64,000 nucleotides of DNA from Hymenobacter sp. BT559 (GTDB lineage Bacteria; Bacteroidota; Bacteroidia; Cytophagales; Hymenobacteraceae): positions 496,001-560,000 of the forward strand of contig NZ_JAELXV010000002.1 of NCBI RefSeq assembly GCF_016427535.1, read 5' to 3'. The position numbers were made by a program, and so were the translations under genes. Shown here one piece after another: positions 37,082 to 39,376 of this stretch. Under the pieces are notes generated by a model. It was not told the origin of the DNA. It saw only the letters and a program-made list of their open reading frames with translations, and ran no database searches. Position 1 is the first letter of the stretch. Each line of letters opens with the position of its first letter.

Positions 37082-38407
37082 CTAAGCGGCCAGTGGGTCT
37101 TCATCGGCCGGCACCAGCGGGGTTAGCACGCGTAGCTGCACCATCTCGACTACCCGGCCGGCCCGGCTGAGTACCCGGAACTCGTAGGGTTCAAGCACAG
37201 CCACATCGCCCACTTCCGGAATGTTGCCATACAGCACATTTAGCAGGCCGCCTACCGTTTCGTAGTCGTCGCCCTCAGGCAGGGGGTAGGGGAGGTATTC
37301 GTTGGCGTCGGGGATGGGGGTAGAGGTATTAACGCGGTATTCCGATTCGGAAATCTTTTCTACCACCGGTACTTCGTTGTCGTACTCGTCCTGGATTTCG
37401 CCTACCAGCTCCTCCATGATGTCCTCGATGGTGACGATGCCCGACACGCCGCCAAACTCGTCGCTCACTACGGCCATGACAATGTGCTTGCGCTGAAACT
37501 GGCGCAGCAAGCGATTAATTTTCTTGGTTTCGGGCACGAAATAAGCCGGGCGCATGATGCGGGCCAGCTCCAGTGGTTCGCCACGCCGAACAATGGGCAG
37601 CAAGTCCTTGACATTGAGCACGCCCACGATATTGTCGATACTGCCGTCATACACGGGCAGGCGCGAGTAGCCTTCGCTAAAAATCTTTTCGAGCAGCTTG
37701 TCTTCCGGGGCGTTCACATCAAGGGCAGCGAGCTTAGTGCGGGGCACCATTATCTGCTTCACCATGCGGTCGTTAAACTGGAAGACGTTTTCAATCAGCT
37801 CGTGCTCCGAGTCCTGAATTTCGCCGCTTTCCTTACTTTGGTCGAGCAGGATGCGCAGCTCCTCAGCCGTGTGTACGTCGCTGCCGTGTACGGCTCGTAC
37901 CCCAAACAAACCTAGCAAGCCGTTTGACAACTTATTCAGCAGCCAAATAGCTGGGAACGTGACGATGTAGAAAATACGCAGCGGCGCAACGATAGACAAA
38001 GTAGTTGCCTCCGGCTTCTGAATGGCCAGCACCTTAGGTGCCTGCTCGCCAATAACAATGTGCAGCACCGTGATAGTGGCAAACGAGGCCACTAGTGCAA
38101 TGCTGTGCACTGTTTCGGGAGAAACAACCAGCCCAAACTTGTGGATGATGGCCAGTAGCACTTCGGCCACTACGCTCTCCCCAATCCAACCTAGGCCCAG
38201 TGACGCTAGTGTAATACCCAGTTGGGTAGCCGAGAGATACGCCTCCAGATTGTGCAGCATCGTCTGGGTAAGCCGGGCCAACTTGTTGCCCTCCTGAGCA
38301 CGCAAGTCTATTTGAGAAGAGCGAACCTTGACCAAGGCAAACTCGGCGGCGACGAAAAACCCGTTGATTAGAACGAGTAGGAGGGTAATCAGTATTTTTA
38401 AGCCCAT
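37082..38407 (-). CDS. CNNM/CBS-domain transporter-like protein (CorC/HlyC family)
   Basis: 441 residues: four-helix DUF21/CNNM membrane domain (about 1-190; INGFFVAAEFALVKVRSSQID, LGITLASLGLGWIGE, FATITVLHIVIGEQAPK), a linked pair of CBS domains (about 210-335; MVPRTKLAALDV, GYSRLPVYDGSIDNIVGVL, DEFGGVSGIVTIEDI), and a C-terminal CorC/HlyC domain (about 350-430). Relatives export or regulate Mg2+ and other divalent cations. Full length, no defects seen. Confidence 0.9.
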   Translation of the reverse strand: MGLKILITLLLVLINGFFVAAEFALVKVRSSQIDLRAQEGNKLARLTQTMLHNLEAYLSATQLGITLASLGLGWIGESVVAEVLLAIIHKFGLVVSPETVHSIALVASFATITVLHIVIGEQAPKVLAIQKPEATTLSIVAPLRIFYIVTFPAIWLLNKLSNGLLGLFGVRAVHGSDVHTAEELRILLDQSKESGEIQDSEHELIENVFQFNDRMVKQIMVPRTKLAALDVNAPEDKLLEKIFSEGYSRLPVYDGSIDNIVGVLNVKDLLPIVRRGEPLELARIMRPAYFVPETKKINRLLRQFQRKHIVMAVVSDEFGGVSGIVTIEDIMEELVGEIQDEYDNEVPVVEKISESEYRVNTSTPIPDANEYLPYPLPEGDDYETVGGLLNVLYGNIPEVGDVAVLEPYEFRVLSRAGRVVEMVQLRVLTPLVPADEDPLAA

Positions 38408-38594
38408 GTGGTCGGCTCCCCTCAGACGCGGACGGTCGGGCAGCCTTTATAAGGCCAAAAGTACGGAGTTTAGGAGAGCGAGTTGACGTCGAGGTAATTG
38501 ATAACGCCAGAACTGCTCATTATTCGCTAGCTGCCCAAGAAGTTATAAAGCAAAAAAGGCACCCTCATGAAGAAGGTGCCTTTTTCGTAAAAAG
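38408..38594. other. Intergenic region between CNNM gene and tRNA-like gene
   Basis: About 190 bp with the terminator at 38552-38585. No gene seen; the CNNM gene promoter should be in this gap but no clear -7/-33 pair stands out. Confidence 0.4.
38552..38585 (-). terminator. Terminator of the tRNA-like gene
   Basis: GGCACC (38559-38564) pairs with GGTGCC (38575-38580). A run of A on the plus strand at 38552-38557 gives the U-tail for minus-strand transcripts; a T-run on the other side makes it usable in both directions. It ends ten bases from the tRNA-like 3' end. Confidence 0.85.
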
Positions 38595-38718
38595 CTGTAG
38601 CGGAAGGACTTGAACCTCCACGAAGTGGTTAGTCGCGGCTCCGGGGAGCATGCAATTTATCCCATTACTCTTCACCCCCGAGATAGGAGGGCGTGTCTGC
38701 CAATTTCACCACACTACA
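38595..38718 (-). tRNA. Atypical class II (Leu-like) tRNA or tRNA-like RNA, 124 nt
   Basis: Read on the minus strand from 38718. Acceptor TGTAGTG pairs fully (one G-U) with CGCTACA. Then TG and a Leu-type D arm (GTGAAATTGGCAGACAC). Anticodon-arm stem CCCTC/GGGGG closes loop CTATCTC, which would read ATC (an Asp-type anticodon) with pyrimidine at position 37, both abnormal. The region before the T arm is 54 nt instead of about 15. T arm GGAGG-TTCAAGT-CCTTC is normal. No encoded CCA. It has a consensus promoter and a terminator, so it is probably transcribed. It could be a pseudo-tRNA, a tRNA with a 35-40 nt insertion, or a specialised tRNA-like RNA. Confidence 0.6.
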
Positions 38719-38756: not shown

Positions 38757-38789
38757 CAAAGGTAAAACGACTTTTTCTTATTATGCAAA
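38757..38789 (-). promoter_or_regulatory. Promoter of the tRNA-like gene
   Basis: On the minus strand TACCTTTG (plus-strand 38757-38764) and TTTG (38786-38789) are 21 bases apart, an excellent match to the Bacteroidota consensus. Transcription should start near 38750, about 30 nt before the RNA 5' end, implying a 5' leader that is trimmed. Confidence 0.75.
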
Positions 38790-38902: not shown

Positions 38903-39376
38903 ATGTCCCGCCCTTATGAATTAGATGACACTGACCGGCGCATCATCAGCTTGCTGGTAAAGGATGCCAAGCTGCCTTATTCTGAGATTGCTCGCCAATT
39001 GCAGGTCTCCGGCGGCACTATCCACGTGCGCATGACGCGCCTCGAAGAATTAGGTATTGTGCGTGGCGCTACCCTAGACCTTGATTTACAAAAAGTTGGC
39101 TATAGTATTCAGGCCTTTCTAGGTATCTATTTGCTCAAGAGTTCCTACTGCGACAGCGTAATTGAGCGGCTGCGCGGTATTCCTGAGGTGGTGAGCCTAC
39201 ATTTCACCACGGGCAGCTACAACTTGTTTGCCCGCCTAGCTTGCCGCGACACCCAGCACCTACGCAATGTGCTGCACGACCAGGTGCAGCAGATAGAAGG
39301 TGTAGAGCGCACCGAAACTCTAATCTCGCTGGATGAAGTATTTAGCCGCTCGGTACAATTAGAAAAAGGTGCTTAG
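38903..39376 (+). CDS. Lrp/AsnC-family transcriptional regulator
   Basis: 157 residues: N-terminal HTH (about 6-55; LDDTDRRIISLLVKDAKLPYSEIARQLQVSGGTIHVRM), then an AsnC ligand/oligomerisation domain (about 70-150; FLGIYLLKS, VVSLHFTTGSYNLFARLACRD, VERTETLISLDEVF). Controls amino-acid or related metabolism; the ligand is unknown. ATG 38903 starts MSRPYELDD; the frame extends ten codons further to a TTG but without domain support. TAATTTTG at 38868-38875 fits the -7 consensus but its TTTG partner is only 11 bases away. Confidence 0.9.
   Translation: MSRPYELDDTDRRIISLLVKDAKLPYSEIARQLQVSGGTIHVRMTRLEELGIVRGATLDLDLQKVGYSIQAFLGIYLLKSSYCDSVIERLRGIPEVVSLHFTTGSYNLFARLACRDTQHLRNVLHDQVQQIEGVERTETLISLDEVFSRSVQLEKGA

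Follow-up and report, generated by a model that had tools for sequence, protein, structure and literature searches.

Decoding tRNAs in general have an anticodon loop of 7 nt with U33 and a purine at position 37, and tRNA-Leu is defined by a Leu anticodon together with A73. The anticodon of tRNA-Sec is UCA, and tmRNA contains a tag reading frame and no anticodon arm. According to the available part of PMC9976931, the strong determinants of tRNA-Asp are G73, G34, U35, C36 and C38 (further ones being G10, G1-C72 and G2-C71), and the identity set of tRNA-Ser consists of G73, C72, G2-C71, R4-Y69, C11-G24, a large variable region and G30-C40. The same part describes tRNA-like mRNA structures which regulate synthetases. 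Allo-tRNAs, found in Clostridia, Proteobacteria and Acidobacteria, and tRNA-Sec have acceptor domains of 12-13 bp (8/4, 9/3 and alike; PMC7609411, accessible part). Large Bacteroidetes phages with 5-25 tRNA genes and a gene for ribosomal protein S21 have been described (PMC9723584, accessible part, where the RNA treated below is not mentioned).

The locus analyzed here is located in a stretch of 64,000 nt from Hymenobacter sp. BT559 (the window, to which all coordinates without a locus name refer). On the minus strand, at 38718-38594, it contains a complete tRNA cloverleaf, in which the variable region measures 55 nt and the anticodon loop reads CTATCTC. This tRNA-like RNA has the 7-bp acceptor stem, the 5-bp T stem, the D/T elbow bases and the long variable arm in common with the class II tRNAs (tRNA-Leu and tRNA-Ser), and its D arm is nearly identical to that of tRNA-Leu(GAG) from the same genome. 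In contrast to class II tRNAs, the variable region between anticodon stem and T stem spans about 40 to over 110 nt across relatives and includes an internal loop and a second hairpin, position 37 is almost never a purine and the anticodon is neither Leu nor Ser. Measured against tRNA-Leu, the window copy has the loop CTATCTC and G73 instead of A73, and it starts with U1-A72. With tRNA-Asp it shares the loop C-U-N-U-C-N-C including C38, as well as G73 and G2-C71, whereas the tRNA-Asp of the genome has a short variable loop, A37 and G1-C72, and G34 is not fixed in the tRNA-like RNA. tRNA-Sec differs by its 13-bp acceptor domain and UCA from the 7/5 geometry and the loop NUC found here. An assignment to tmRNA was rejected because a covarying anticodon arm is present and separate tmRNAs were found in 8 of 40 viral stretches.

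Allo-tRNAs and tRNA-Sec also have non-standard anticodons and a long variable arm, with irregular tRNAs in polycistrons, but the variable arm of the tRNA-like RNA is far larger and, compared with allo-tRNAs, it occurs in other taxa (accessible part of PMC7609411). Allo-tRNAs are the nearest published oddities found, with a different acceptor geometry; on account of the 7/5 geometry, both tRNA-Sec and allo-tRNA were rejected as identities. The synthetase-regulating mRNA structures share an anticodon-arm mimicry which could bind a synthetase, whereas the gene described here is free-standing, forms a full cloverleaf and has its own promoter motif (available part of PMC9976931). Literature searches, which covered an open-access collection, listed no recognizable report of the RNA family. 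As far as it can be searched, the family of tRNA-shaped RNAs in Bacteroidota and large phages is undescribed there.

Structure and surroundings of the tRNA-like gene

The covariance model R1 was built from 25 copies, 24 of them from Hymenobacter. The positions of the gene, its parts and its neighbours are listed in Table 1. When a stretch of 501 bases around the gene was searched, the Rfam tRNA model gave a score only just above its gathering score of 29, and no other Rfam family reached the cut-off. A gathering search of the whole window did not list the gene; the sole listing was an ordinary tRNA, assigned to tRNA-Arg by ARAGORN. This program called no tRNA-like copy in the window, at the 30 loci L001-L030, among the copies of L102-L141 or in 40 viral stretches.

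Table 1. Positions of the tRNA-like gene, its structural parts and adjacent features in the window.
Feature	Position	Strand	Basis
tRNA-like RNA gene, T1 to C74, 125 nt	38594..38718	-	R1 119.3 bits; Rfam tRNA 30.3 bits; covariation among relatives
Acceptor stem, TGTAGTG + CGCTACA	38712..38718 + 38596-38602	-	7 pairs, one G-U; sequence and pair counts
D arm, Leu-like, GTG-AAATTGGCAGA-CAC	38693..38709	-	sequence; compared with own tRNA-Leu(GAG)
Anticodon arm, CCCTC-CTATCTC-GGGGG (one G-U), loop 38680-38686	38675..38691	-	sequence and compensatory changes
Variable-arm stem V1, GAAG + CTTC	38670..38673 + 38622-38625	-	covarying, 100% paired in three alignments
Variable-arm internal loop, 5' side, end = GGGATAAA	38656..38669	-	GGANAAA kept in most rows
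Variable-arm tip hairpin V2, 23 nt in the window copy	38633..38655	-	length very variable among relatives
Variable-arm internal loop, 3' side, CTAACCA	38626..38632	-	CTAAC invariant in 25-row alignment; some distant copies differ
T arm, GGAGG-TTCAAGT-CCTTC, stem with one G-U	38603..38619	-	sequence and pair counts
Discriminator G73 and genome-encoded C74	38594..38595	-	GC ends in 138/138 parsed copies
Bacteroidota-type promoter, TTTG 38789-38786, 21 nt, TACCTTTG 38764-38757	38757..38789	-	sequence
Terminator-like stem with A and T tracts	38552..38586	-	sequence, by eye
Divergent Lrp/AsnC-family regulator gene	38903..39376	+	Pfam AsnC_trans_reg and HTH_AsnC-type
CNNM/CorC gene, other neighbour of the tRNA-like gene	37082-38407	-	

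The earlier note on this DNA had described a tRNA-like gene with an odd anticodon loop, CTATCTC, and a very long variable region, and both sequence and covariation bear this out. The acceptor, D and T arms, which it found to pair well, form a 7-bp acceptor stem, a D arm with GG and the stem GTG/CAC, and a 5-bp T stem. The pyrimidine it placed at position 37 is U37 in the window copy (whose loop also has U33 and A34) and U or C in 132 of 135 copies read by script. The section before the T arm is indeed very long, but counts 55 nt and not the 54 nt given. The term 'Leu-like ends' holds in part: a resemblance to tRNA-Leu is seen in the D arm and in the geometry around the variable arm, but not in U1-A72 and G73. 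The check by tRNA finders suggested there turned out negative, as ARAGORN called no copy tested and the match to the Rfam tRNA model is weak and generic. The near-perfect TTTG/TACCTTTG promoter is present on the minus strand with a spacing of 21 nt. For the terminator, a strong stem with paired A and T tracts was seen by eye, but a generic scan at the window gene, limited to sigma-70-type hexamers and to loops of 3-8 nt, gave neither a promoter nor a terminator.

The promoter motif is enriched upstream of the copies in relatives. TAnnTTTG, which we take to be the Bacteroidota -7 element, was found within 120 nt upstream at 116 of 159 loci, compared with 8 of 159 for a control stretch and 9% of shuffles. 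At 54 of these 116 loci it ends 33-40 nt before T1 (38 nt in the window). Judged by this motif, the transcript is probably expressed.

An Lrp/AsnC gene is divergent and close at 140 of the 217 loci with enough flank, some genomes being counted more than once. Since this neighbour is absent at 77 of the 217, the link is not obligatory. In a cluster analysis of 41 loci, no neighbour was as widespread as the Lrp/AsnC family, with 22 loci; at about ten of the 41, the neighbours were taken, by eye, to be sufB/sufC/sufD.

Within the giant variable arm, the 4-bp stem V1 occurs as GAAG/CTTC, GGAG/CTCC, GGTG/CACC and other variants and is paired throughout. In most copies, the two sides of the internal loop contain GGANAAA and CTAAC, respectively, an arrangement which seems to resemble the UAA/GAN internal-loop motif. 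The tip hairpin differs widely between lineages in length and sequence. GG(T/A)(T/A)GACCAC was found in the tip of 47 of the 222 distinct host copies among the host pattern matches listed, and GACCAC in 35 of 36 distinct phage copies. Gene length ranges from 109 to 176 nt for copies not chosen by their loop, and one copy among the pattern-search matches listed measures 186 nt.

Conservation and distribution

A DNA search gave matches in 67 of 99 relatives (own genome counted), although those of lesser length and score may represent ordinary tRNA-Leu genes. A full-length alignment of 30 copies contained 29 from Hymenobacter and one from another family. RNAalifold, applied to 25 relatives, recovered the cloverleaf and the extra variable arm without these being supplied. 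Pair counts were obtained for three alignments: for 25 copies aligned with MAFFT, 94.4% of the cells were paired and both sides had changed in 70 cases, compared with 24.6 in shuffles; for at least 99 distinct pattern-search copies, the values were 96.8% and 413 compared with 115.6; and for 49 distinct model-search copies, 96.1% and 212 compared with 59.8. The 99-copy and 49-copy alignments were fitted to the model structure and hence lean towards the model, in contrast to the 25-copy MAFFT alignment. In all three, pairing and covariation exceeded all 500 shuffles, and compensatory changes keep the acceptor, D, anticodon and variable-arm stems. Such changes in related genomes had been proposed as a check beforehand. 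The anticodon stem is 97-100% paired in relatives; among the 49 distinct copies from the class and the genus, 7 have a mismatch in it. All aligned copies have the 7/5 geometry of acceptor and T stem, and G2-C71 is conserved in the 49-copy alignment and, among the matches listed, in the 99-copy alignment.

Folding of the single window sequence does not favour the cloverleaf (minimum free energy -36.0 kcal/mol, compared with -26.5 kcal/mol for the cloverleaf as drawn; z -0.08, with 80 of 200 shuffles folding at least as well), so chance was excluded through the comparative evidence instead. This evidence makes a strong case that the tRNA-shaped RNA is real and selected. A recently decayed tRNA, one of four options in the earlier note, and an assembly error, which it named as a refuting case, are both excluded for the window copy by conservation with compensatory change across the phylum. 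The option of an insertion-bearing tRNA is right only in form: what appears inserted is a conserved variable arm with a structure of its own, and all five Leu anticodons already exist in the genome. The regulatory mimic and the non-canonical use fit best. A decaying tRNA-Leu pseudogene or an assembly error is hardly credible: one decayed copy and the missing copies in some relatives would agree with it, but the acceptor, D, anticodon and variable-arm stems show compensatory changes and the promoter motif is conserved. Two further candidates were discarded. An intron in the anticodon loop was rejected because the 5-bp stem covaries as it is and the loop comprises 7 nt. An anti-Shine-Dalgarno mimic, an idea based on the resemblance of CCTCCTNTCTC to the 16S tail, was set aside because stems like CCCGC/GCGGG break CCTCCTNTCTC and keep the pairing.

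Presence was called at E ≤ 1e-14, a threshold set above what ordinary tRNA-Leu genes reach (in L129, ordinary tRNA-Leu reached 50.5 bits, compared with at least 85.9 bits for the tRNA-like copies in the same search). At this threshold, R1 matched 286 of 390 genomes of the order, 65 of 395 genomes of the class, including 51 from beyond the order, and 30 of 296 genomes of the phylum, including 2 from beyond the class, the three draws overlapping. A looser threshold in the same search of the order yielded 384 of 390, ordinary tRNA-Leu included. The pattern search also covered phyla other than Bacteroidota; among the matches listed, the 118 named stretches bear Bacteroidota names, except one Ignavibacteriales MAG. 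Tandem copies are common, with up to seven at one locus (L117, one copy interrupted by N). Near a true copy, a degenerate tRNA-like stretch with a similar acceptor and T arm was seen (L141:5413-5508, 26 bits).

In 12 of 47 Hymenobacter genomes, no match was obtained at E ≤ 1e-14, and the RNA is thus dispensable there. All 12 contain the lrp gene, beside which one has an eroded copy and 11 are without a match at E ≤ 1. The eroded copy (L339:1230-1346, 69 bits) has broken pairing and occupies the usual place beside lrp. At the other loci (L329-L338 and L340), where the gene beside lrp is missing, a TACATTTG promoter-like element still precedes another sequence, as judged by eye; in most of them, a GGCCACGGC...GCCGTGG stem is followed by a hairpin with ATCTGGGTGGGT, again by eye. 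L340 has two hairpins with this core in a row and a T run after the last. G-rich hairpins with a ATCTGGGTGGGT core also occur downstream of many Hymenobacter copies, e.g. in L018.

Copies in viral contigs

The pattern scan detected a copy in 40 IMG/VR viral contigs, the longest of which comprises 326,291 bases, and R1 scored 57 to 102 bits in all 40. From 10 viral stretches, 15 of 20 proteins matched PHROG families, including DNA polymerase, RNA ligase, clamp loader and endolysin-like families. GenBank phage records, queried with one phage copy, gave no match. Many viral copies are located within phage tRNA arrays: ARAGORN found ordinary tRNAs in 38 of the 40 viral stretches and separate tmRNAs in 8, and the nearest tRNA on the 5' side was tRNA-Ser for 26 of 36 distinct phage copies (5 nt upstream in 11). 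A second long tRNA-like kind was observed in phage arrays, with Leu-like ends AGTCAGGTGGCG...CAGGTTCGAATCCTGTCCTGACTAC or close and a length of about 109-149 nt; the central parts differ greatly and show no evident anticodon arm. Several occur per stretch in some cases (L295:6142-6262, L295:6477-6616, L295:7682-7830, L298:4907-5050, L298:5866-5974, L319:3170-3299, L320:5064-5185, L320:5269-5412 and L324:9200-9320).

All 35 viral copies with GACCAC have a palindrome of 6-12 nt which starts 1-4 nt after the motif, in 12 different sequences; in 28 of the 35, it comprises at least 10 nt. Shuffled tails gave a 6-nt palindrome in 30% and a 10-nt palindrome in 2%. Among the host copies with the motif, only 9 of 47 have a palindrome of at least 6 nt. 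Since the carrier phages are related to each other, the palindromes cannot be counted as independent. The persistence of self-complementarity despite changes in sequence suggests homodimerization of the phage copies; for the longer palindromes, a small hairpin is the alternative to a dimer.

The phage copies also bear on a further explanation, namely an element of phage-host conflict which would have spread between hosts and large phages, acting either as part of a defence or, on the phage side, as a decoy for defences that cleave tRNAs. Carriage in tRNA/tmRNA arrays, the patchy presence with tandem copies and a phage tip which varies yet stays palindromic would agree with this, as would a defence reported in 2026 to cleave the variable loop of tRNA-Tyr (PMC13096335, available part). 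We nevertheless regard it as unlikely, considering that the chromosomal lrp adjoins at 140 of 217 loci and that the window neighbours tested are housekeeping-type genes.

Anticodon loop and possible function

For a loop tally of copies not chosen by their loop, 154 rows (141 distinct) were taken from the search with the model, which had been trained on genus copies; 138 were kept after removal of an ordinary tRNA-Leu, an N-bearing copy and an odd 26-bit match. All 135 copies read by script have U35, C36 and C38. At position 37, 127 of them have U, 5 have C and 3, all class-level copies, have G; U33 is present in 117, the other 18 having G or C at 33. The remaining three of the 138, read by eye, are CCTCC-TTGTCTC-GGTGG with a U-U mismatch in the middle of the stem. 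Position 34 takes all four bases, G being the commonest (74/138); in Hymenobacter copies, including the window copy with A34, A or C replaces G34. U1-A72 and the end GC were found in 138 of 138 copies and G10 in 33. The consensus loop is CUNUCUC, with its length of 7 nt kept and U33 not fixed. An earlier tally of at least 258 distinct copies (67 of 353 rows being dropped as ordinary tRNAs, truncated, N-bearing or unparsed) holds partly by construction, since the search pattern fixes much of the D arm and the anticodon arm.

In the genome's tRNA-Asp, the loop is CTGTCAC; the commonest loop of the family, CTGTCTC, thus differs from it by a single exchange, U for A at position 37. G73-C74 at the 3' end is in keeping with the ordinary tRNA genes of the genome, as all 14 that were looked at encode N73-C74. 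Five Leu and four Ser anticodons are present in the genome, as well as Asp and Glu tRNAs, which makes the tRNA-like gene an extra gene; that it supplies a missing Leu tRNA was rejected because all five Leu anticodons are otherwise present. Neither tRNA-Ile(GAT) nor tRNA-Ala(TGC) was noticed among the genome's 42 matches to the tRNA model, perhaps because the assembly collapses rRNA operons.

From the Asp identity set, G73, U35, C36, C38 and G2-C71 are conserved in the copies, while G34 (74/138) and G10 (33/138) vary and U1-A72 occupies the first pair (138/138). From the Ser set, G73, G2-C71, the large arm and mostly R4-Y69 are present; the copies have A72, mostly U11-A24, and U-G at 30-40.

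Since purine 37 is missing and U33 is relaxed, the RNA likely does not decode; on account of the three class-level copies with G37 and of U33 in most copies, a small chance of decoding is left. A decoding tRNA with an oversized arm, whose anticodon NUC would read GAN codons as a special Asp or Glu tRNA or, allo-tRNA-like, misread them as Ser, would account for the intact cloverleaf, the loop close to that of tRNA-Asp and the position of phage copies among decoding tRNAs. Given the pyrimidine 37 in 132 of 135 script-read copies, G or C at 33 in 18, a position 34 varying over four bases and the presence of ordinary Asp and Glu tRNAs, this appears quite improbable.

We rather propose, with moderate confidence, a non-decoding RNA of the tRNA family which works through its giant variable arm. 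Its transcript would be stable, trimmed and CCA-tailed like a tRNA, and it may be charged, either through the Asp determinants U35/C36/C38/G73 or with Ser through the large variable arm and G73. The giant arm would offer a platform for binding partners, with a role in translation or amino-acid control. The divergent Lrp/AsnC regulator would probably control the RNA in hosts, and phages bring their own copy among their tRNAs. More tentatively, this may be extended to a new functional class, found phylum-wide, of chargeable, non-decoding tRNAs in which the giant arm does the work. They would serve a process linked to translation for which large phages provide by themselves, and would form homodimers via a self-complementary tip in phages. 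The dimer part is weakened because the host copies with the motif have no shared palindrome and the phages are related.

The Asp-like loop could also be read differently, as that of a trap or regulator of an aminoacyl-tRNA synthetase, which would bind AspRS (or SerRS/GluRS) via this loop and G73 and tune charging under Lrp control while delivering no amino acid. U35, C36, C38, G73 and G2-C71 are conserved, strong Asp determinants being among them (PMC9976931, available part), and the divergent regulator gene belongs to the Lrp/AsnC family. Hymenobacter copies, however, carry A or C at the place of the strong determinant G34, U1-A72 stands in place of the G1-C72 of bacterial tRNA-Asp (same part of PMC9976931) and the giant arm is left unexplained, which renders this reading rather doubtful.

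Although few genes are catalogued as well as tRNAs, a standard finder misses this tRNA-like RNA, and no dedicated Rfam family appeared in the search despite its presence in 286 of 390 genomes of the order and in viral contigs. This suggests that tRNA counts of phages and bacteria may be incomplete. The divergent Lrp/AsnC gene, the lineages with natural loss and the phage copies provide handles on the job of the RNA. If it is a stable non-decoding tRNA, the tRNA fold would have been recruited phylum-wide for another job.
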